In this document: in pieces, positions 1 to 25,974 of the stretch
How the letters are laid out: each line of letters starts with the position of its first letter
How positions within the stretch are numbered: position 1 is the stretch's first letter
NCBI GenBank assembly: GCA_024232355.1
Contig: JAAEPW010000261.1
Span: 33,919 to 97,918 of the forward strand
Length of the DNA stretch: 64,000 nt
Reading direction: 5' to 3'
DNA from: Chloroflexota bacterium
GTDB lineage: Bacteria > Chloroflexota > Anaerolineae > B4-G1
Notes under the pieces: generated by a model
Database searches by the model: none
Seen by the model: only the letters and a program-made list of their open reading frames with translations
What the model was told of the DNA's origin: nothing
Program-made: the position numbers and the translations under genes

Positions 1-1615
1 CTCTGGGGTCGAGCTATGCGAGGCGTGCTACCTTGATGTGTCCAGCAAGACGGATGTAACCTATGCTCACCTTGATTGTGACAGCGCTCCCGCTATCGCC
101 GCGCGTCTAAATGTGCAACCTGGGGAGCAAATCACGGCGGACAAGCTCATTGCACTGGTCACCAGCCGTGATGCGGCCGATGTATGTCAAGTTGCCTTAT
201 CCAGGTTGGAGGGGGGAGTCAGTTGCGGCTACGATGACCTGCGGGTGTCCAACGACGCGGCCTGGGAGTCAGAGTGGGAGACCAGTAACGTTACCATTGA
301 GGGCGACGACGAGGCTGACTTGGCATTGCGTTATAGCCTTTTCCAGCTCCTCATTGCCGCGCCACGCCACGACGACCGGGTGAGCATCCCTGCCAAGACG
401 TTGAGTGGATTTGGCTATCGGGGACACGTCTTTTGGGATACTGAGATATTCATTGTACCCTTTTTCACACATACAAGGCCAGAGATCGCCCGTAACTTGC
501 TGATGTACCGCTACCACACGCTGCCCGGCGCGCGACGAAAGGCGCGGGAGAGTGGTTACGAGGGCGCGATGTTTGCCTGGGAAAGCGCAGACAGTGGCGA
601 CGAGACAACACCGCGCCTCGTGCCTGGCCCCAATGGTGAGATCGTCCGCATTTGGTGCGGCGACATTGAGCATCACATCACCGCCGATGTAGCCTATGCC
701 GTGGTCCAATACTGGCGGGTCACCGGCGATGATGACTTTATGCGCGACTATGGAGCCGAGATCGTGCTCGACACCGCCCGCTTTTGGGCCTCGCGCGTCG
801 AGTGGAATGCTGCTCATGAACGGTACGAGATCAACAATGTCATCGGCCCTGACGAGTATCACGACCACGTAAACAACAACATTTTCACCAACCTGATGGC
901 GCGGTGGAACTTGGATGTCGCGCTGGAGGTGCTGGCATGGTTACGGCAAGCATATCCAGAAAAGGCGTCGGAACTGCAAGTGCTCTTAGAGTTGACACAA
1001 GAACAGCACTGGACTGACGTCATCGAACATTTACATGTTCTTCACGACCCCGAAACGGATTTGATGGAGCAGTTCGAGGGGTTTTTTAATCTGAACGACG
1101 TCGATTTGGCCGACTATGAACCACGCAGTATTTCTATGCAGGCATTGTTGGGCGTTGAACAAGCCCAACAGTATCAGATCCTCAAACAGCCTGACGTGTT
1201 GATGTTGCTTTATCTGTTGCAAGACAAGTATGACCAAGAAACCTTGCAAGTCAATTGGAATTATTATACACCCCGCACCGACCTGACTTTTGGTTCGTCG
1301 TTGGGACCGGCGATTCAGGCTTTGCTAGCTGCCTGGTTGGGGGAACCAGAAACCGCTTACGAGCATTTTATCCACGCCGCGCGGACGGATCTCCAAGACG
1401 TGCGGGGCAACGCCGCAGATGGTATCCACGCCGCGACGGCTGGCGGGCTATGGCAGGCGGTGGTCTTTGGCTTTGCTGGGCTGCGGTTGGATGAAGAGGG
1501 ATACACCATCGCCCCCCATCTGCCACCTCACTGGAAGCGGCTCTCCTTTTCGTTTTTCCATCGGGGGGAGAGCGTTCATTTGGTACTGCCCCATCATAGT
1601 TCTAATGAGCTTTGA
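1..1615 (+). CDS. GH65 disaccharide phosphorylase, 3' part (kojibiose/maltose phosphorylase-like)
   Basis: The reading frame is open to the window edge, so the gene starts upstream; the GTG at 38 is internal. Seen: the GH65 core, with a GHVFWDTEIF segment, a catalytic-loop GPDEYH motif followed by VNNNIFTN (the Glu is the expected general acid of the family), and a C-terminal beta domain after the helical barrel. GH65 phosphorylases are cytoplasmic enzymes that split alpha-linked glucose disaccharides with phosphate to give beta-glucose 1-phosphate. The product fits the neighbouring alpha-glucoside importer, which converges on it. Which linkage is cut (alpha-1,2, alpha-1,4 or alpha-1,1) cannot be read from this fragment. 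Confidence 0.93.
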   Translation, partial: SGVELCEACYLDVSSKTDVTYAHLDCDSAPAIAARLNVQPGEQITADKLIALVTSRDAADVCQVALSRLEGGVSCGYDDLRVSNDAAWESEWETSNVTIEGDDEADLALRYSLFQLLIAAPRHDDRVSIPAKTLSGFGYRGHVFWDTEIFIVPFFTHTRPEIARNLLMYRYHTLPGARRKARESGYEGAMFAWESADSGDETTPRLVPGPNGEIVRIWCGDIEHHITADVAYAVVQYWRVTGDDDFMRDYGAEIVLDTARFWASRVEWNAAHERYEINNVIGPDEYHDHVNNNIFTNLMARWNLDVALEVLAWLRQAYPEKASELQVLLELTQEQHWTDVIEHLHVLHDPETDLMEQFEGFFNLNDVDLADYEPRSISMQALLGVEQAQQYQILKQPDVLMLLYLLQDKYDQETLQVNWNYYTPRTDLTFGSSLGPAIQALLAAWLGEPETAYEHFIHAARTDLQDVRGNAADGIHAATAGGLWQAVVFGFAGLRLDEEGYTIAPHLPPHWKRLSFSFFHRGESVHLVLPHHSSNEL

Positions 1616-1875: not shown

Positions 1876-2976
1876 CTAGCGGATCGCTAACTCTGTTTGC
1901 TTGTCAAAGATGTGTAGGCGATCCATATTAAAGGCTATGCCTACAGTATTGCCCATCCGTGCCTTTGTGCGTGAGTCAAAGATACCCACAAACGGGATGC
2001 TCTCTGACTGTAGATGGACAACCACTTCTCGGCCAAGCATCTCGGTCGCGTCCACCCTGGCCTCCACTAGCGACTTGTTGATGCCATGCGGGCAGTAGTC
2101 GGCGTCGTGAGTATCCTCAGGACGGATACCCAGGATGACATCCTTGCCCAGGTGCTGACGGCAGATTTGCACTTTACTCTCGGGAACATCCAGGCTAAAG
2201 TCCTTGCAATCCACGGCCACCTTGCCGTCCCGCTCCACTAGCTTTACGTTAATGAAATTCATGGCGGGGCTGCCGATGAAACCAGCGACAAAGAGGTTGT
2301 CCGGGTATTCGTAGAGATTCTGTGGCGTGTCGATCTGCTGCTTGACGCCGTCCTTCAACACCAGGATGCGGGTGCCCATCGTCATCGCCTCAACCTGGTC
2401 GTGGGTCACGTAGATAAAGGTCGTCTCTAGCCGATGATAGAGCTTGCTGATCTCGGCGCGGGCCTGCACACGCAGTTTGGCGTCCAGATTAGAGAGAGGC
2501 TCGTCCATCAGGAAGACGTTCGGTTCCCGTACGATGGCGCGGCCGATCGCCACGCGCTGCCGCTGACCGCCGGAGAGTTGGCCGGGCTTGCGATCCATTA
2601 ACTGCTCGATGCCCAGGATATCGGCTGCCTCAAGTACGCGCCGGTTAATCTCACTCTTTTGCATCTTGCGCAATGTGAGGCCAAAGGCCATATTGTCGTA
2701 GCACGTCATGTGAGGATACAGCGCGTAGGACTGAAAGACCATAGCGATGTCTCGGTCTTTGGGCGGCACTTTGTTGACCACCCGGTCGCCAATATAAATC
2801 TTTCCCTCGCTGATCCCCTCTAGGCCAGCCAGCAGTCGGAGAGCGGTGGATTTGCCGCAGCCCGAAGGGCCGACGTAGACAATGAACTCTTTGTCCGCAA
2901 TGTCTATGCTAAGGTCATTGATCCCTATGACATCATCCCACCGCTTGGTTACATGCTCATACTTTATGCTTGCCAT
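1876..2976 (-). CDS. aglK: Alpha-glucoside ABC importer ATPase (MalK/AglK family)
   Basis: 366 aa, the usual length for the MalK/UgpC group. Seen: Walker A GPSGCGKST (36-44), Q-loop VFQSY, signature LSGGQ (134-138), Walker B VFLMDEP (154-160), the switch His in VTHDQ, and a C-terminal OB/TOBE regulatory domain with GIRPED. It energises import through the two permeases encoded just upstream. The start ATG follows AAAGGAG. It is the last gene of the minus-strand unit lacI-aglE-aglF-aglG-aglK, about 70 bp after aglG. The symbol rests on AglE/F/G-like neighbours; a broader sugar range is possible because such ATPases are often shared. Confidence 0.93.
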   Translation of the reverse strand: MASIKYEHVTKRWDDVIGINDLSIDIADKEFIVYVGPSGCGKSTALRLLAGLEGISEGKIYIGDRVVNKVPPKDRDIAMVFQSYALYPHMTCYDNMAFGLTLRKMQKSEINRRVLEAADILGIEQLMDRKPGQLSGGQRQRVAIGRAIVREPNVFLMDEPLSNLDAKLRVQARAEISKLYHRLETTFIYVTHDQVEAMTMGTRILVLKDGVKQQIDTPQNLYEYPDNLFVAGFIGSPAMNFINVKLVERDGKVAVDCKDFSLDVPESKVQICRQHLGKDVILGIRPEDTHDADYCPHGINKSLVEARVDATEMLGREVVVHLQSESIPFVGIFDSRTKARMGNTVGIAFNMDRLHIFDKQTELAIR

Positions 2977-3046: not shown

Positions 3047-4237
3047 CTACCCCTTCACCGCACCGGCCATCATACCACGCACGAAGAATCGCTGCATAGC
3101 AAAGAAGACGATCATTGGCAAGAGCATGGAAAAGAATGCCGCTGCCGTCAGCAAATGCGGACCCGTGAAACGGCCCACCATATTGCTGATCTGCCAGGTC
3201 AGTACCGGTGTTTGGCCGCCAAGGAAAACCAGCGCCACCAGCAGATCGTTCCAGATCCATAGGAACTGAAAGATAGCCAATGATGCCAGGGCCGGGACCG
3301 ACAGCGGAAGGGCCAGCTTGTAGAACGCTGTCCAGTGGGATGCGCCGTCCAGGTAGACCGACTCGAAGAGTTCCTTGGGCAACGAGCCCAAAAAGTTGCG
3401 CATGAGGTAGATGGCGTAAGGTAGGCCGAATCCGGTGTGGAAGAGCCATACACTCAGAAAGGTGCCAGTGAGACCCAACTTGGCAAAGACGCGGTAGACG
3501 GGGATCAATGTCATTTGCAACGGGACGATCTGGAGCGCCACGAGGAGGACAAATAGCCACTGACGGCCCTTAAAGTCGAGCCAGGAGAAGGCATAAGCGG
3601 CGAACGATGCGATTATAATGGGCAGAAGGGTGGCCGGGATAGTGACCAACAAGCTGTTCAGAAAGGCCATTGCCATGCCGCGCTCACCGGTCAGCCCGGC
3701 GCCAAGGCAGGCGTCATCGTCTTCAGGGTTGCCCTCGACGCACGATTCGATATAGTTCGACCGGCCCGAGTAGCCCACCAATACGTCCACATAGTTATTG
3801 GTGGTGAAACGCGGTCGGGTGGCTGCGGTCTCTGCGCCGGAAAGTTGCCGCATATAGGTCAGGATGTCCGCCGTTTGCTGCGCGTCGGGCATCTCCTCCA
3901 CGTGAGCCTTGCCGTCTGCCAGTGGGTCGCGCAAGACGGCGGTCAAGGCAATGGAGCGGCGGAATTGCTCCACGAGCGCCGGATCGGACAGGTTCGCTTC
4001 TGCGACATCCGCACCGTTAGCGCCATGACAGGACCCACAATATTGCCCATACACGGGCTGTCCCACTGCTTTGCGCGGCGCGAAAACCATCCACCAACCG
4101 GTTTCGACCACATCTTGCTGGGGCCGAAACGAGGCGACGAGCAGACCGACGGTTGGCAGAACCCACAGCACGCACAGAAAGATCACCACAGCATAAAGGG
4201 GAAGCTTTTTCAATATAGATTCGTTTTCGTCGTTCAT
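3047..4237 (-). CDS. aglG: Alpha-glucoside ABC permease AglG-like with inserted cytochrome c domain
   Basis: 396 aa, about 100 longer than usual MalG/AglG permeases. TM1 is near residues 13-35. After GWWMVF, where relatives go directly into the TLxNY segment, there is an insert of about 85 residues (roughly 55-140). The insert has a heme c motif CGSCH (67-71), a later EEMP (Met116) that suits the second heme ligand, and a helix ending TYMRQL, all in the order of class I cytochrome c. The permease then resumes with FTTNNYVDVL, five more TM segments and the EAA loop. With the N-terminus inside, the insert faces out, as heme attachment requires. C166 and C177 may form a disulfide. The start overlaps the aglF stop (ATGA). 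The transport fold is secure; heme binding is inferred. Confidence 0.9.
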   Translation of the reverse strand: MNDENESILKKLPLYAVVIFLCVLWVLPTVGLLVASFRPQQDVVETGWWMVFAPRKAVGQPVYGQYCGSCHGANGADVAEANLSDPALVEQFRRSIALTAVLRDPLADGKAHVEEMPDAQQTADILTYMRQLSGAETAATRPRFTTNNYVDVLVGYSGRSNYIESCVEGNPEDDDACLGAGLTGERGMAMAFLNSLLVTIPATLLPIIIASFAAYAFSWLDFKGRQWLFVLLVALQIVPLQMTLIPVYRVFAKLGLTGTFLSVWLFHTGFGLPYAIYLMRNFLGSLPKELFESVYLDGASHWTAFYKLALPLSVPALASLAIFQFLWIWNDLLVALVFLGGQTPVLTWQISNMVGRFTGPHLLTAAAFFSMLLPMIVFFAMQRFFVRGMMAGAVKG

Positions 4238-5163
4238 CGCATAGCCTCCTGTTCACGGAACCGGCGAACGTTGATATAGCCAATCGGCAGCACGGCGAGA
4301 ATGAGGACAACGGCGATAGCCGAAGATAGGCCAGAGTTGAACTTGCTGAACTGTTCGATATACATGCGCGTGGCGATGACCTGGGTGCCGGGTTGCCCTT
4401 TGCCCATGACGTACACGATGTCGAATATCTTGAGTACGTTGACGGTCATCGTGGTGAGTACAACGACGATCGTTGGTGAGATAATGGGAACCAAAATCCT
4501 TCGAAAGATCGTCCACTCGTTGGCGCCATCTGTACGTGCGGCCTCCAACAATTCTTCGGGCACGCCCTTGAGCGCGGCCGATAGGATGGTCATGCAAAAG
4601 CCCGTCCACATCCACACGCCGACGATGATGAGAGCGACGTTGTTGATCCAGGGGCCGGTCGTGGTCCACGGAATGGGATCAAATCCAAGAGCGGTGACGA
4701 TACCGTTGAGCACGCCGATCTGGTTTCCCTGGCTCTGGAAATCGTACATATAGCCCCAGATGACGCCGGCCCCCACGAAGGAAATGGCCATTGGCATAAA
4801 GATCACCGCCTTGGCCAACGCCTCCTGTTTGATCCGGTCCACGAGCACAGCGATGATGAGACCGAATATGGTTGTGCCCGGCACCATAAGAACGATCCAC
4901 AGTAGGTTGTTTTTGAATGCCAGGAGCATCGTGTCGTCGGTCAGGGCGTGACGATAGTTCTCAAAGATGCCCCAACACGGTTGGTCCTCTTGGCAGGTAA
5001 CGGCGGCCGATTGCTCGCCCTCGGTATCCAGGAAACTCAGGTAGACGGTGTTCACAGTGGGATATACGACGAAGAAGAGCATGATGAGCAGAGCTGGCGC
5101 GAGGTAGAACCACGGCGCAGGCCCTGATTGTTTCATTATTTCTGGCACTTGGCTCTTTGCCAT
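4234..5163 (-). CDS. aglF: Alpha-glucoside ABC permease (MalF/AglF family)
   Basis: 309 aa with six predicted TM segments. It has an AglF-type segment VGAGVIWGYMYDF and an EAA loop (EELLEAARTDGANEWTIFRRI) that docks on the ATPase. An extracytoplasmic loop after TM1 has two Cys (TCQEDQPCW). The start is placed at MAKSQ because AAAGGAG lies 7 bases before it; an upstream in-frame ATG at 5214 falls in the hairpin region and lacks a ribosome site. It overlaps aglG by four bases, so translation is probably coupled. With AglG it forms the membrane channel for alpha-glucosides. Confidence 0.93.
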   Translation of the reverse strand: MAKSQVPEIMKQSGPAPWFYLAPALLIMLFFVVYPTVNTVYLSFLDTEGEQSAAVTCQEDQPCWGIFENYRHALTDDTMLLAFKNNLLWIVLMVPGTTIFGLIIAVLVDRIKQEALAKAVIFMPMAISFVGAGVIWGYMYDFQSQGNQIGVLNGIVTALGFDPIPWTTTGPWINNVALIIVGVWMWTGFCMTILSAALKGVPEELLEAARTDGANEWTIFRRILVPIISPTIVVVLTTMTVNVLKIFDIVYVMGKGQPGTQVIATRMYIEQFSKFNSGLSSAIAVVLILAVLPIGYINVRRFREQEAMR

Positions 5164-5190
5164 GAGCATACTCCTTTCTTTTTCGAGGTT

Positions 5191-5273
5191 ACCCTGGCAA
5201 AGGTTACGGATCAAACCTTTGCCAGGGTTCCCGTGCGAGTTTCAGGGGAGACCCAGGTTGGCCGGGGTCCCCC
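5191..5273 (-). other. Two strong hairpins between aglE and aglF
   Basis: ACCCTGGCAAAGGTT (5191-5205) pairs perfectly with AACCTTTGCCAGGGT (5214-5228): a 15-bp stem with an 8-nt loop. A second GC-rich hairpin spans about 5245-5273. No U tract follows in the minus direction. This suits mRNA 3'-end protection or partial termination, giving more binding protein than permease. Confidence 0.7.
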
Positions 5274-7970: not shown

Positions 7971-9029
7971 TCACCTCCTTTTTTCAGATGATGATTCACG
8001 ACCATCTGCCCCACACGATTGCCGCACGACGAGTTCGGTTTGCAAGAGTATCTCTCGTTCCTCAACCGGCTCCCCCCCAATGATTTGCATCAGCAGCGTT
8101 GCAGCCCGATAGCCGAGTTCATAAGCAGGCAGCCGCATCGTCGTTAACGGTGGGTCCACATAGTTCGCTAGTTGCACGTCGTCGAACCCGACCATCGCGA
8201 CGTCGAGCGGGACTTGTAATCCCCGCTCTTTGATCAGCACCAGTGCGCCAAAGGCCACCAAGTCGCTGGCGACGAAAACGGCGGTGGGGGGTTCGGGAAG
8301 ATCGAGTAATTGTTCCATCGCCACGCGACCGCTTTCCTCATGAAAGTTACCGTAGCGTACCGGTACTTTGTCAAGGCAAAGCTCAGCCTCTTCCATTGCT
8401 TGGCGGTATCCGACCAACCGGTCACGAGCGGCGGTGTACTCTAGCGGAGCGTTGGTGATCATTCCTATCTGCTTGTGTCCCAATTCAATCAGATGTTCCA
8501 CGGCCTGCTTTGCCGCACCTACGTTGTCTACATCCACGAAAGGAAGGTTCGAGTCAGGCAATTGCCCCAAAAGCACAACTGGAAAATTCTCAGCCTTTAA
8601 GCGTAGCAGTTCCTGGTCGTCATAGCGGGGACCGGAGAGGATGATGCCGTCAATGTGTTTTTCTCGCACCAGACCGATATAAGCCTCGGGCGACGTTACA
8701 TCTCCCACAGAATGAATCAATGCACGAAAGCCGTTTTCCTGGACAGCCTCCCCCACGCTGCGCAACACCTCGGGTAAAAAGATATCGGCAAAGATGCAGT
8801 CATGACTTTGGCAGAGAACAAAGCCAATGGTCCGAGTGCGGCCACTGACGAGGGTGCGGGCAGCTGCATCGGGGTAATAGTTCAAGCGACGTGCCACTTT
8901 GAGGATGCGTTGACGTGTTTCAGGGCTGATACGCACACCGGCGACATCGTTGAGCACAAGCGAAACGGTCGTACGAGAGACACCAGCTTCTTCAGCGATC
9001 TGACGTTGTGTGGGGCGGGATTTGGGCAT
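7971..9029 (-). CDS. LacI-family transcriptional regulator
   Basis: 352 aa, a standard LacI/GalR length. The N-terminal helix-turn-helix ([21 protein letters not shown], in two parts: residues 7-18 and 19-27) is followed by the hinge helix (PDAAARTL) and a periplasmic-binding-protein-like sensor with [21 protein letters not shown] and [12 protein letters not shown]. It most likely represses the downstream agl genes and itself in response to an imported sugar. It has a consensus promoter with a perfect 14-bp palindrome over the expected transcription start. It is 101 bp upstream of aglE on the same strand. Confidence 0.92.
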
Positions 9030-9064
9030 GGATTGGCCTTTTTCTTAAGATGAATGGATTGGAT

Positions 9065-9089
9065 GACACGTGTTAGTAACACGTGTTAC
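9065..9089. promoter_or_regulatory. LacI-type operator at the lacI transcription start
   Basis: GTAACACGTGTTAC (9076-9089) is a perfect 14-bp palindrome with central CG, the style of LacI-family operators. A second copy of the core, ACACGTGT, lies at 9066-9073. It sits just downstream of the lacI -10 box, where bound repressor would block transcription. Autoregulation is inferred. Confidence 0.75.
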
Positions 9090-9090
9090 C

Positions 9091-9119
9091 ATTATAGTGA
9101 TAAAGAGAGAATTTGTCAA
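9091..9119 (-). promoter_or_regulatory. Consensus promoter of lacI
   Basis: Read on the minus strand: TTGACA (9119-9114), 17-bp spacer, TATAAT (9096-9091). Both boxes match the sigma-70-type consensus exactly. Transcription should begin near 9084, inside the operator palindrome. Confidence 0.85.
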
Positions 9120-9147
9120 CAATCTGGTGGGAAAAAGCGGCAAAAGC

Positions 9148-9175
9148 TTGACAGACCGATTTTTTATGATATAAT
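9148..9175 (+). promoter_or_regulatory. Consensus promoter of the GntR-fusion gene
   Basis: TTGACA (9148-9153), 16-bp spacer, TATAAT (9170-9175). It diverges from the lacI promoter; the two -35 boxes are 28 bp apart. The -10 box is inside a long inverted repeat (9166-9193). Confidence 0.85.
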
Positions 9176-9193
9176 GTTATTACATTATATCAT
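9166..9193. promoter_or_regulatory. GntR-type operator over the -10 box
   Basis: ATGATATAATGT (9166-9177) and ACATTATATCAT (9182-9193) are perfect 12-bp arms with a TATT spacer. The palindrome covers the -10 box and start site of the gene for the GntR/binding-protein fusion, so that protein probably represses itself here. Confidence 0.75.
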
Positions 9194-9233
9194 TGTTCTG
9201 GCCAACCACACTCATCCCCAACGAGGCGCATCT

Positions 9234-10715
9234 ATGGCAAGCATCGATCGTGATTCCCCTATTCCCATATACCATCAACTCAAAACTTTGATTCGGGAAC
9301 AGATTGAGAGCGGCGTATGGAGACCGGGGGAACGAATTCCTACTGAACTAGAGCTGTGTCGGTCGTATAACATCAGCCGTTCCCCTGTGCGACAGGCACT
9401 TGGTGAACTGTCGTATGAGGGGTTACTCGTCCGTCGTCCGGCTCTGGGTACTTTTGTCAGGGATCGTACAGTCGCAGGCCCGGCACAGGATACGGTGATT
9501 CAGGTGATGAGTTCGGATCCCCGCTGGTCAACGGTGCTCGACCAAGTCTCTCACGTTTGGAATGCAAAGTACTCTCAAAAAATCACATTCCACGTTCAAG
9601 TAGTTGATCACAGCCAGTTCTACAACTTGTTAAGTTCAGATGTCGGTCGCGGGACTGCTCCCGATGTGGCATTAGTGGACACCGTGTGGGTGGCCGGGTT
9701 GGCGCAATCTGGCTTTCTCTATGCCTTGGAAGATCTGATTACCCGGCAGAATTATGACGAATTTGTAGGCGACTTGTACCCAGCTTTTGTCGAGGCCAGC
9801 TCCTTTGAAGGTAAATTGTATGGATGGCCGGCCAAAGCGGATGCGTCCCTACTTTGGTACCGTAAAGATTGGTTTACTCAGGAGGGGTTAGAGCCTCCAC
9901 AGGATTGGGACGATTTGCTGGATGTGTCTAGACATTTTCTCCAGTCCCAAGTGCGAGAGCGTTATGCGCTGGATCATCCGTTGGCCTTTCCCAGTGGGGT
10001 AGCCGGTGGTGAGGCGACGGTGTATAATTTGATGTCTTTTGTTTGGTCGGCCGGTGGAAAGATTTTTGACGCGGAGACAGTTGTGCTCGATAGTCCTGAC
10101 ACGCAGCGAGCTATTCAGTTTTTGCGAGAATTGGTAACAGGCCATCGTGCCAGCCCACTTAAAGTGGTGAATTATAAGGCAACCACGTCCCTCAAATTGT
10201 TTGCCAGTGGAAAGGTAGCTATGGCGCTTGGCGGCAGCTATGAGAGTGATCTTATCCGTAATGCAAGTAGTTGGAAAGGCGACGAACTTTTGCAGCGAGC
10301 TGGTTACGTGGCGCCACCGGCTGCGCCGGGAAAGTATTCGGTTTCGACGGTAGGGGGATCGAGCTATGTGATCCTGCGGCAATGCCAGAGCCCCGCACTG
10401 ATGATGGATATTCTCAAGGTTGCCACGGATGCAAACGTTGTCGGAGATATGTATCGTTCCATGTTGCAGGATTCGCCTTCCTTATCTTTTGGCAATCTTC
10501 TTAGGGCGGAAACTGATCCGTTATTGGCAAAGACCTCACGTATGGTTGCATCGGGGCGCGCACGTCCATCAATCCCTGAATATTTCAAGGTCTCTCGCCA
10601 ATTGCAGGCCATGTTTGAGGCAGTGATTTCTGATTCTGTGCCTGTGACAGAAATTGCACGACGTACGGCAGAGTTTGTCGGCGTGATTACGGGTCGTGAC
10701 CTGGATGGTCCTTGA
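9234..10715 (+). CDS. GntR DNA-binding domain fused to an extracellular solute-binding protein fold
   Basis: 493 aa. Residues 8-76 are a GntR winged helix (PIYHQLKTLIREQIESG, PTELELCRSYNISRSPVRQA, GTFVRD). From about residue 85 it is a family 1 sugar-binding protein: a VWNAKY-type first lobe, GTAPDVALVDTVWVAGLAQSG, KLYGWPAKADASLLWYRKDW, and a C-terminal lobe. No signal peptide or TM segment is seen, so it should be a cytoplasmic ligand-sensing regulator. The start is set at the ATG before ASIDRD because the GntR domain begins there; 60 upstream codons overlap the promoter and operator and are rejected. It may control the downstream importer and/or the agl genes. The ligand is unknown. Confidence 0.88.
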   Translation: MASIDRDSPIPIYHQLKTLIREQIESGVWRPGERIPTELELCRSYNISRSPVRQALGELSYEGLLVRRPALGTFVRDRTVAGPAQDTVIQVMSSDPRWSTVLDQVSHVWNAKYSQKITFHVQVVDHSQFYNLLSSDVGRGTAPDVALVDTVWVAGLAQSGFLYALEDLITRQNYDEFVGDLYPAFVEASSFEGKLYGWPAKADASLLWYRKDWFTQEGLEPPQDWDDLLDVSRHFLQSQVRERYALDHPLAFPSGVAGGEATVYNLMSFVWSAGGKIFDAETVVLDSPDTQRAIQFLRELVTGHRASPLKVVNYKATTSLKLFASGKVAMALGGSYESDLIRNASSWKGDELLQRAGYVAPPAAPGKYSVSTVGGSSYVILRQCQSPALMMDILKVATDANVVGDMYRSMLQDSPSLSFGNLLRAETDPLLAKTSRMVASGRARPSIPEYFKVSRQLQAMFEAVISDSVPVTEIARRTAEFVGVITGRDLDGP

Positions 10716-22236: not shown

Positions 22237-25200
22237 ATGAAATGCCCAAACTGTGCCTATGACGGCCCGTCCGGTATGAAATTCTGCGGCATGTGCGGCC
22301 TGCGACTGGCGCGAGAATGCTCTGCTTGCGACTTTTGCAATCCGCCCGACTTTAACTTTTGCGGGCAATGCGGCACACCTCTAACCAAAGATTCGGCCTC
22401 ACCTCAGCCGCCGCTCGCTGTTGAGGATCAGACTGCCACACTGCCTGCTTCCCGATACCCCTCGCCGCCAATCTCCCTGGAAGGCGAACGCCGATTGGCC
22501 ACCGTAATCCTGGCCGACGTGACCGGTTCCACAAACCTCTTGGAACAGATCGGCACCGAAGCCTGGGTAGAGATGATGAACCGCATCCTCCAGATACTGG
22601 AAGCCGAGATCTATCGTTTTGGTGGAGAGGTGGACCAGTTTCGGGGTGACGGCCTGGTTGCCTTTTTCGGCACGACATCGGCGCACGAGGATGATCCGGA
22701 GCGGGCCGTATTGGCCGCTCTGGCGATGCAACAGGTGATCAGACCCTACGCGGCCGAACTGAGCGAGCGCGAATCCATCAATCTTTTGCTGCGCGTTGGC
22801 GTAAACACGGGGGATGTGATCGTCGCCAGCATTGGTGACAGCCGCCAGCACAGCGAAGACACGGCTATGGGGGAGGCCATTGCCGTCGCGGCCCGGATGG
22901 AGACCGCTGCCGAACCAGGCACTGTCCTGGTTAGTGAGAACACCTACCGTTTGCTTCAGTCACAGTTCGAATGGGAATCACTGGGTGAGATCATGATCAA
23001 GGGTGTGAGCCAGCCCATTGCCGTTTATCGCCCGCTGTTTCCACGAACTGACGTCGAGCAACCACATTCTCTGCAAGCCTATGGTCTCTCAACTCCGTTC
23101 ATCGGGCGCGAGGACGAGTTCCACACCCTCAAAAGCTGTGTCAAAGACCTGTATGATGGTCGGGGCGGAATCGCCATGGTGACGGGAGATAAAGGGATGG
23201 GCAAGTCCTTTTTGGTGAACGAGGTACGCCATCATTTTGTCCGCCATGGTGTGTTGTTAGCTGAAGCGTATGATAAAGAATCGTCTCCACCGGCTGCGTT
23301 AACCTGGCTGCGCGGGCGTTGCCGGTCCTACAGCCAGTCATCGCCTTACTCGATGTGGCTCGATTTGCTGCAAAACTGGCTGCACATACATCCGGCCGAG
23401 TCCAAGGAGACTGCGCGAGACCATCTTTGCCATCAGGCCAAGGCATTGTGGGGTGATCGTTGGACAGAACATTATCCCTACCTGGCTACTTTTCTCTCAC
23501 TTCCCTTGGAAGAAACTTTTGTCGAACGGATCAAATACCTGGACGCTGAAGGATTACGCCAACAGTTCTTTTTGACCATACAAAGTTGGGTAGAAGAGAT
23601 GTCCAAGCGTGGGCCTCTCGTGCTGGCTTTTGCAGACGTGCATTGGGCCGACACTACATCGTTGGGCCTATTAAAGTACTGTCTGCCCTTGTGCGATCAC
23701 CAAGCACTGCTCTGGCTGATCGTTTGTCGCCCGGATCGTTCTTCGCCAGCCTGGGAATTTCATCACCGGATCGAGACAGAGTACCCGCATCGACTGACCA
23801 CACTAACGCTTCCGCCATTGACTGACGATCAAAGCTGTGAATTCATAGACCAATTGGTTGGGCAAAAAGTACTGTCAGCGAATACGTGTACCCTCATCGC
23901 CGGCAAAGCCGAAGGAAACCCTTACTATGTTGGGGAACTCGTTCAGTCTTTGATCGAACAAGAGGTGTTGGTACGGGATGTCGAAACCAGTCGTTGGCGC
24001 GTGATGCGTGCCGTGGCCTCGCTCGATTTGCCGGACACGCTACAAAGCCTGCTGCTGGCACGCATTGACAACCTTTCGCGTGGTGAACGCCGCGTGCTCC
24101 AAATGGCTGCCGTGATCGGGCCTGTGTTCTGGTCGAACGTGCTGCAAGCTCTGGCTAGCGGCTCGGCAGCGTTGGAAACATCATCCCTAAAAGCACATCT
24201 GACGGCGCTACAGCGCGCGCAGTTGGTCAATGAGCGCCGGCGGGTGCCCGCTTTGGGAATGGAATATGTCTTCAAGTCTAACCTGATTCGGGATGCGGCC
24301 TACGAAGGTTTGCTCGGCACCCAGCGCGCAGTGTACCATCTTCAGGCAGCCGAATATCTCGAAGACTTTTTTGGGCTCGAGGCACTGTCGTCGTACTATG
24401 ACGTGCTGGCGTACCATTATTGTCAGGCCGGTCACCGGGGAAAAGAATTGTTCTATACGATTCAAGCTGCCGAACAAGCCCAAGAGATTTATGCCAATGC
24501 TGAAGCACTGGCGCATTATGCCCATGCTCTCGAGCTGCTGGATAAAATGGAAGAGTATGTGGCCAATGAGGATGGGAACGAGAACCGGCTCTATACCATC
24601 TCTACCCAACGTTTTGAAGCGCTCAACGGTCGGCGCAAGCTATCCTTCTTGATGGGCGATTTCGATGCGATGTGGGCCGATGCCCAAGCATTGCTCCCAC
24701 TGGCGCGTCAGTTGGATGATGACCCGGTATGGCTGGTTGACGCGCTTTTGGAACAGCCCGGGGTGGCGGGGTGGCGGCACAAGGAGGACCTAGACGCAGC
24801 CGTTCCGATGGCCCAACAAGCTTTGGCACTATCCCAACAACTGGGTGATCGTCACCGGGAAATGCAGTGCCTGACCGTTGTCGCTCGTCTGTGCTTGTGG
24901 CGTAACGATCCCCAAGCATGGGAACTCGCGGAACAAGCTTTTGAACTGGCCCAACAACTGGGGGACCAACGTCACGAGGTCGGCATTCTCATCGGAATGG
25001 GGCATATCTATGCCACGAGCGAACCAGAGCGCAGCATGAAATACTTGGAGGCCGCTCTTCCCATCAGCCAGGTTCTGGATGACAAGATGACTGAACTGGA
25101 AATTTTGGGTCTGATCGGCGTGCAACTTGAGAGCAGTGGTGACTATTGCCAAAGACTGACCGAGTGTTATGGAGAACGGTTACGCCTCAGTCGTGAGATT

Positions 25201-25974
25201 GGGCACCGTCCGGCAGAAGCTGAAACCTTGATGTTCTACGGTCAAATCCTGGCCCTTTATCTGGGTGATTATGAGGCGGGGTTGGCGATGTTGGAGGAGA
25301 GCCTCAGCATTTGGGAGGGGATGCCGGGCGAACTGTTTTGCTTGCTGCGTATTGCTCAGATTTATACTGTGCAGGCCCAGCACGACGAGGCATTTATGGT
25401 CCTTGAGCGCGCGCACCGCATTGGCGAGCGGTATTCGGAAGACATGGCGCGTACTGGCCTAGATCTAGTTTCCATCATTTTACACAACGCTCTTGGCGAT
25501 GAGGAGCACTTGGCCCTTGCACTGGAACTTGCCACGCAGAATCGCCAAGTATTTGTGGATAACTCACAGCTCTCAGATCAGTATCGTATGGTCGCTGCCT
25601 GCGAGGCGGCAGCCGCTCATCTTGGATTGTCCCAGGCGGTTGCCGACGCACCAAAGCATCAGCACCATCTACATCAGGCGTTAGAGTCGTCACAAGCGGC
25701 GCTGGATATCTACCAGTCTTTTGGATACGTCCGTCCCATAGAGTGTGTCAGCGAAGAGATCTTTTTCCGACACAGTCAGGCCCTGGCAGCCAACGGTCGC
25801 GAGGCAGAGGCTGCCGAATATCTCCAGCGCGCCCACGAAGAAATGATGCGCAAACACGATCTGATCCCACCGGACAGCTCTTTTCGCCGCACTTATTTGG
25901 ACAACATTCCCTTGCACCGCGATATTCGCGCGGCGTACACGGCAAATACCAACTTGCAAAGAGTGGCAGAGTGA
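22237..25974 (+). CDS. Zinc-ribbon / class III cyclase / AAA ATPase / TPR signalling protein
   Basis: 1245 aa. Residues 3-46 are a double zinc ribbon (CPNC, CGMC, CSAC and CGQC knuckles). Residues 86-230 are a class III nucleotide cyclase homology domain with both metal Asp (ILADVTGST, Asp94; FRGDG, Asp138) and the transition-state Arg (Arg220). The usual Asn four residues earlier is Ala216, which may lower activity. From about 285 there is an AAA/STAND-type ATPase: Walker A GDKGMGKS (317-324), Walker B LVLAFADVHWAD. The last 500 residues are helical TPR-like repeats. It is probably cytoplasmic, coupling a cyclase to a large sensor scaffold. No clear ribosome site is seen. Confidence 0.9.
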   Translation: MKCPNCAYDGPSGMKFCGMCGLRLARECSACDFCNPPDFNFCGQCGTPLTKDSASPQPPLAVEDQTATLPASRYPSPPISLEGERRLATVILADVTGSTNLLEQIGTEAWVEMMNRILQILEAEIYRFGGEVDQFRGDGLVAFFGTTSAHEDDPERAVLAALAMQQVIRPYAAELSERESINLLLRVGVNTGDVIVASIGDSRQHSEDTAMGEAIAVAARMETAAEPGTVLVSENTYRLLQSQFEWESLGEIMIKGVSQPIAVYRPLFPRTDVEQPHSLQAYGLSTPFIGREDEFHTLKSCVKDLYDGRGGIAMVTGDKGMGKSFLVNEVRHHFVRHGVLLAEAYDKESSPPAALTWLRGRCRSYSQSSPYSMWLDLLQNWLHIHPAESKETARDHLCHQAKALWGDRWTEHYPYLATFLSLPLEETFVERIKYLDAEGLRQQFFLTIQSWVEEMSKRGPLVLAFADVHWADTTSLGLLKYCLPLCDHQALLWLIVCRPDRSSPAWEFHHRIETEYPHRLTTLTLPPLTDDQSCEFIDQLVGQKVLSANTCTLIAGKAEGNPYYVGELVQSLIEQEVLVRDVETSRWRVMRAVASLDLPDTLQSLLLARIDNLSRGERRVLQMAAVIGPVFWSNVLQALASGSAALETSSLKAHLTALQRAQLVNERRRVPALGMEYVFKSNLIRDAAYEGLLGTQRAVYHLQAAEYLEDFFGLEALSSYYDVLAYHYCQAGHRGKELFYTIQAAEQAQEIYANAEALAHYAHALELLDKMEEYVANEDGNENRLYTISTQRFEALNGRRKLSFLMGDFDAMWADAQALLPLARQLDDDPVWLVDALLEQPGVAGWRHKEDLDAAVPMAQQALALSQQLGDRHREMQCLTVVARLCLWRNDPQAWELAEQAFELAQQLGDQRHEVGILIGMGHIYATSEPERSMKYLEAALPISQVLDDKMTELEILGLIGVQLESSGDYCQRLTECYGERLRLSREIGHRPAEAETLMFYGQILALYLGDYEAGLAMLEESLSIWEGMPGELFCLLRIAQIYTVQAQHDEAFMVLERAHRIGERYSEDMARTGLDLVSIILHNALGDEEHLALALELATQNRQVFVDNSQLSDQYRMVAACEAAAAHLGLSQAVADAPKHQHHLHQALESSQAALDIYQSFGYVRPIECVSEEIFFRHSQALAANGREAEAAEYLQRAHEEMMRKHDLIPPDSSFRRTYLDNIPLHRDIRAAYTANTNLQRVAE

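Follow-up and report, generated by a model that had tools for sequence, protein, structure and literature searches.

A stretch of 64,000 nucleotides from a Chloroflexota bacterium (contig JAAEPW010000261.1, positions 33,919 to 97,918; hereafter the window) encodes an AglG-type sugar permease that carries a cytochrome c-like domain in an outer loop. The open reading frame (ORF; 3047-4237, minus strand) is open throughout its 396 codons. Its BPD_transp_1 domain (PF00528) scores 59.3 bits against a cut-off of 26.4, which assigns the protein to the type I sugar ATP-binding cassette (ABC) importers, and lies downstream of the cytochrome c-like segment. SugB and MalG are its closest relatives among solved structures. 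We take AglEFGK to be an alpha-glucoside transporter with AglG as its permease subunit, and the JGI names of the listed homologues read alpha-glucoside transport system permease. The insert sits between the first transmembrane helix (TM1) and the permease core, in a loop that lies outside the membrane if the topology is as in MalG. The first-pass annotation of this DNA had proposed an extra segment and a CGSCH motif at this site. The ORF translation bears out both, with a segment of ~93 residues (50-142) and the motif at residues 67-71. Its broader claim, that a cytochrome c-like domain occupies this outer loop, also stands; CxxCH is kept in most close homologues. Positions of all features are collected in Table 1.

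Table 1. The cytochrome-bearing permease and its neighbours (positions in the window).
Feature	Position	Strand	Evidence
AglG-type (MalG-like) permease, 396 amino acids, with inserted cytochrome c-like domain	3047..4237	-	PF00528, 5.5e-16
Inserted class I cytochrome c-like domain, residues 50-142 (~93 residues)	3812..4090	-	PF00034/PF13442, AlphaFold2, Foldseek
CGSCH heme-attachment motif, residues 67-71	4025..4039	-	Motif in 132/158 aligned sequences
H112, proposed second axial heme ligand	3902..3904	-	In 132/132 sequences with CxxCH, 2/26 without
M116 of EEMP, earlier-proposed ligand, not conserved	3890..3892	-	Met at this column in 48/132
AglF-type partner permease	4234..5214	-	PF00528
Sugar-binding lipoprotein, tandem two-copy fusion, 854 amino acids	5305..7869	-	Weak binding-protein Pfam matches, none above cut-off
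LacI-type regulator	7971..9029	-	PF00356, PF13377
MalK/MsmX-type ATPase	1876..2976	-	PF00005, PF17912, PF08402
Glycoside hydrolase family 65 (GH65) enzyme, cut by window start	2..1615	+	PF03632, 1.7e-118

The inserted segment is very probably a genuine cytochrome c domain. In the profile search that the first-pass annotation had proposed, the segment cut out of the permease exceeds the threshold of PF00034 (24.7 bits, cut-off 21.3) and falls short of that of PF13442 (24.3 bits, cut-off 27), while the full-length permease stays below both (19.7 and 20.7 bits, respectively). Among 65 hand-chosen CxxCH-bearing sequences (the query plus 64 taken from the 120 listed homologues), PF13442 matches all and PF00034 matches 50 (E ≤ 0.01). 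The AlphaFold2 model of the domain (pLDDT 91) has a class I cytochrome c fold, and a Foldseek search with the domain returns cytochromes by title in 40 of the 50 listed rows (best E 0.068), headed by the M58H mutant of cytochrome c6. Moreover, a profile built from 42 domain sequences matches solved c-type cytochromes, with 8q1v reached in a single stretch (6.1e-05) and CcoP (3.2e-08) only when summed over its repeated domains. Most of these 42 sequences were later searched with the same profile, so that their own matches arise by construction. In a sample of 298 genomes from the class to which Pelolinea belongs, the 22 best matches (E ≤ 4.7e-136) all carry CxxCH, and the next match spanning the insert (G269, 2.9e-85) has a different insert without the motif. 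A chance CxxCH was rejected because the motif is conserved among homologues.

The alignment of 158 distinct sequences comprises the query, 46 loci and 119 of the 120 listed homologues, after removal of eight identical rows; P0053, with 299 residues, was left out for its shortness. CxxCH, the motif of class I cytochromes c, is present in 132 of these. The sixth ligand in this class is usually a conserved Met, and the first-pass annotation had assigned this role to M116 of EEMP. Only part of that proposal survives the homologue survey: the motif is conserved in most sequences and the Met is not. M116 is present in the query, yet the column holds Met in just 48 of the 132 CxxCH sequences, and 46 of them have no Met anywhere from +34 to +52, counted from the motif His. 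A His is conserved instead. H112, four residues upstream of the EEMP Met, is invariant in all 132 at a distance of 40, 41 or 43 residues from the motif His, and His/Met ligation was rejected on these counts. In cytochrome c6, Met58 is presumably the heme ligand, which with the motif at residues 14-18 puts the ligand at +40. Every one of the 132 sequences retains both Cys, the motif His and H112, while most of the domain varies; for CxxCH this follows from how the sequences were selected, for H112 it does not. The invariance of H112 and the missing Met thus point to a heme c that is probably bis-His ligated, by H71 and H112.

Scanning the genomes of bacterial and archaeal species yielded 121 relatives, and 24 of the best 80 contain the CxxCH insert. 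All 24 belong to Chloroflexota by title or taxonomy, including the cultured Pelolinea submarina and Levilinea saccharolytica. Together with the 22 genes from the class sample, four of which are in both sets, this gives 42 distinct CxxCH-insert genes in Chloroflexota genomes. CxxCH occupies the site in 93 of the 120 closest listed protein clusters, and a search with the domain region alone retrieved 20 proteins among 413 candidates, all with PF00528. One Levilinea saccharolytica contig (L016 and L017) holds two AglF-AglG copies whose AglGs are identical over the last 380 residues.

Heme-less versions of the domain occur naturally. CxxCH is absent from 26 of the 158 aligned sequences, and 24 of these also lack H112; the commonest letters at the motif positions are L, A, P, Y and Y, and the H112 column is Q in 21. 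The two members that keep H112, P0017 and P0025, retain parts of the motif. All 26 still match the domain profile (E 1.3e-20 or better), and none was used to build it. In a tree of the inserts, 21 of 22 heme-less rows form one clade (support 100/99) nested among query-like heme inserts, and the heme/heme-less label requires two changes, with one not ruled out. On a tree of the permease core (51 of 164 rows, hand-picked and without the partial cases P0017 and P0025), the heme-less rows are scattered and the label needs ten changes; a single heme-less clade is rejected with p-AU 1.55e-85, the group having been specified with a previous tree already in view. P0039 and P0086 illustrate the discrepancy, as their four core segments are 94, 89, 100 and 99% identical and their inserts 44%. 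Since near-identical permease cores carry either version, the simplest reading is that the domain is swapped as a cassette by recombination. No heme-less gene appeared in the genome searches, in which all 22 best class matches have CxxCH, and the match lists of 6 and 11 genomes of two families contain no further match over the insert.

The loop between TM1 and the core of AglG-type permeases is an insertion hotspot, judging from the sequences that occupy it. On 150 permease ORFs of the collected loci, the domain profile matches all 46 with CxxCH (most by construction) and none of the 104 without. We cut out the loop from 137 of the 150 ORFs and from the 26 heme-less proteins. Loops of the locus permeases without CxxCH are short in 61 cases and long in 32, and none of the long ones matches the cytochrome profile. 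Two unrelated families make up the long loops, one with 26 members and one with 6. The larger family spans L119-L156 and the smaller comprises L034, L055, L063, L080, L133 and L152; their hosts are Alphaproteobacteria and other genomes of the class. The permeases of L023-L025, which have no insert, share 67-71% identity with the query over the segment that aligns best.

Nearly all hosts have a marker of the machinery for heme attachment. This Ccm marker, PF01578, occurs in 39 of 41 distinct insert-host genomes (21/23 and 21/22 in the two sets, four shared) and also in one of three genomes of relatives without the insert. In Pelolinea submarina, one cluster encodes CcmE, CcmF with a thioredoxin-like domain, a fused CcmA-CcmB and CcmC; CcmH and CcmD were not identified there, and a 438-residue ORF of the cluster has no Pfam match. 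Among 2190 greedy ORFs in 2.46 of the 3.52 Mb of the Pelolinea chromosome, 18 contain CxxCH. One of them encodes a pentaheme cytochrome whose N-terminal region has a hydrophobic stretch, adjoined by a gene for a ferric-reductase-like flavoprotein, and genome G023 has a similar cytochrome/flavoprotein pair beside its CcmF gene. The pentaheme cytochrome is a possible redox partner of the permease domain. At L259 (1041-3503) and L206 (9987-12461), a multiheme cytochrome c lies beside a ferric-reductase-like membrane flavoprotein. PF13442 matches just once in nine of the 23 genomes. The listed place is the permease for six of these nine, a count that leaves aside G017, G019 and G020, and all five PF00034 matches in the nine genomes are the permease. 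The notion of the permease as the sole cytochrome c of some genomes was dropped in view of the pentaheme cytochrome of Pelolinea and the like protein in G023.

In the window, the cytochrome-bearing permease shares an operon with its partner permease and a binding protein. AglF adjoins AglG in all 24 CxxCH loci inspected (L001-L022, L026, L057), and LacI and binding-protein genes lie upstream where the loci extend far enough. Ten chosen neighbour proteins comprise six of the alpha-amylase family, one GH65 enzyme, one trehalase, one GH63-like glycosidase and one ABC1 kinase-like protein. Eight of the ten are enzymes of alpha-glucoside use, with no redox enzyme in the set, and the locus context is ordinary for that purpose. 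The link to substrate oxidation that the first-pass annotation had suggested finds no echo among these neighbours, and such a role for the domain was rejected.

The two halves of the binding lipoprotein in the window are 87% identical over 402 columns. Tandem halves are also found in L009 (4266-6842; 100% identical) and L017 (4310-6913; 98.5% identical). In-frame duplication of the binding-protein gene looks recurrent, as the halves resemble each other more closely than they do their counterparts across loci.

Our overall explanation, advanced tentatively, is an accessory extracellular class I c-type cytochrome domain that tunes import. The Ccm system would attach heme to CxxCH on the outer side of the membrane, and H71 and H112 would serve as its two ligands. 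The domain would hang from the loop that in MalG bears the binding-protein contact, its heme would trade electrons with extracellular redox partners, and its redox state, or the folded domain itself, would alter gating or the docking of the sugar-binding protein. What we observe is the domain match, conservation of the motif, the coupled loss of CxxCH and H112, cassette exchange, the gene context and a Ccm marker in most hosts; the attached heme, its two His ligands, redox sensing and any influence on transport are inferred. According to a simulation study, residues 70-72 of E. coli MalG face the periplasm and directly touch the binding protein, whose N-lobe in MalFGK2-E interacts mainly with MalG (PMC3150292). 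The profile match aligns core residue 191 with MalG residue 86, which by interpolation places the insertion ~20 residues before this contact; a domain located here could therefore reach the binding protein. We know of no intramembrane heme site in this permease fold and hence do not take the domain for an electron wire. Redox tuning of import by the heme domain, as one component of this explanation, is a reading that we favour but hold with reserve. Its most far-reaching form, a redox-gated importer in which a swappable extracellular heme c domain senses redox conditions in its surroundings and sets alpha-glucoside uptake while lineages toggle control by exchanging heme and heme-less versions, appears rather unlikely.

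Several of these lines of evidence have weak points. Precomputed Pfam annotation assigns a cytochrome domain to only 42 of the 120 listed homologues, and the Foldseek E-values are weak, with none ≤ 0.001. As the heme-less inserts form one clade on the insert tree, the joint loss of CxxCH and H112 counts as about one event and not 24, and the permease-core trees are quick ones without bootstrap. The Ccm association is weak in the class sample, where 21 of 22 hosts and 246 of 276 other genomes have the marker. Finally, permeases with a heme-less domain persist in nature, which suggests that their retention does not depend on heme.

A structural docking module ranks close behind redox tuning. Here, the cytochrome fold, stiffened by the heme at its core, would enlarge the grip on the binding protein as the MalF P2 loop does, and redox would be irrelevant. 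Such a module, though doubtful, would suit both the unrelated domains that fill the same loop elsewhere (32 long loops in two families, none cytochrome-like) and the profile match that all heme-less versions retain. The constancy of both Cys, the motif His and H112 amid an otherwise variable domain speaks against it. That same strictness would be unexpected for a decoy, as would be needed if the domain were mainly an exposed variable surface, exchanged between strains under pressure from phage, predators or changing binding proteins with heme secondary. Cassette exchange, seen in the conflict between the core tree (p-AU 1.55e-85 against one clade) and the insert tree (two changes), fits this scenario, which we consider improbable. 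An electron relay that serves an extracellular chain and is fused to an abundant surface protein has in its favour the class I fold and the pentaheme cytochrome and ferric-reductase-like genes in Pelolinea; no second redox centre is seen in the permease and the sugar operon supplies no reason for a relay, which makes this a poor candidate. A thiol/disulfide or metal site in place of a heme site is very improbable: the loop does contain a second Cys pair, C166/C177, that is invariant in all 65 rows of one alignment, but the fold matches and His spacing indicate class I cytochromes c and 39 of 41 hosts carry the Ccm marker.

The permease and its domain are assembled from parts of known kinds. 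MalG/SugB-type permeases (MalFGK2-E, LpqY-SugABC) have only a short outer loop where the AglG-type permease has its cytochrome c-like domain. AglG of AglEFGK is the same subunit, and its alphaproteobacterial relatives also have an insert at this spot; in contrast, these inserts lack CxxCH, and relatives without the motif give no match to the domain profile (0/104). The permease domain shares with class I cytochromes c (cytochrome c6, CcoP domains) the fold, CxxCH and the spacing to the second ligand, and differs in that this ligand is apparently a His and the host protein a transporter. The P2 loop of MalF belongs to the other subunit, has another fold and is not known to bind a cofactor. It is likewise an outer domain in a sugar importer and interacts with the binding protein (PMC3150292). 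A membrane urate oxidase with a cytochrome c domain is a precedent for fusion to a membrane protein of other function, although an enzyme and not an ABC importer subunit (PMC4562309). Among the papers listed by aimed searches of an open-access library, judged by titles and abstract starts, none reports an ABC sugar permease that carries a cytochrome c domain; most subscription journals and all bioRxiv preprints lay outside the library's scope. The lineage is described in abstracts as abundant in anaerobic digesters. If our explanation is true, a conserved extracellular heme domain inside a transport subunit would be a new place for import control; to our knowledge, ABC sugar importers are controlled by expression and cytoplasmic signals. 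The natural pairs of heme and heme-less inserts on near-identical permeases present the same transporter with and without heme, which makes the question directly testable.

Two further genes of the window encode multidomain proteins. A 553-residue protein (9054-10715, plus strand) fuses a GntR DNA-binding domain to a sugar-binding-protein domain, and a 1245-residue protein (22237-25974, plus strand) combines zinc ribbon, adenylate/guanylate cyclase, AAA and TPR domains.
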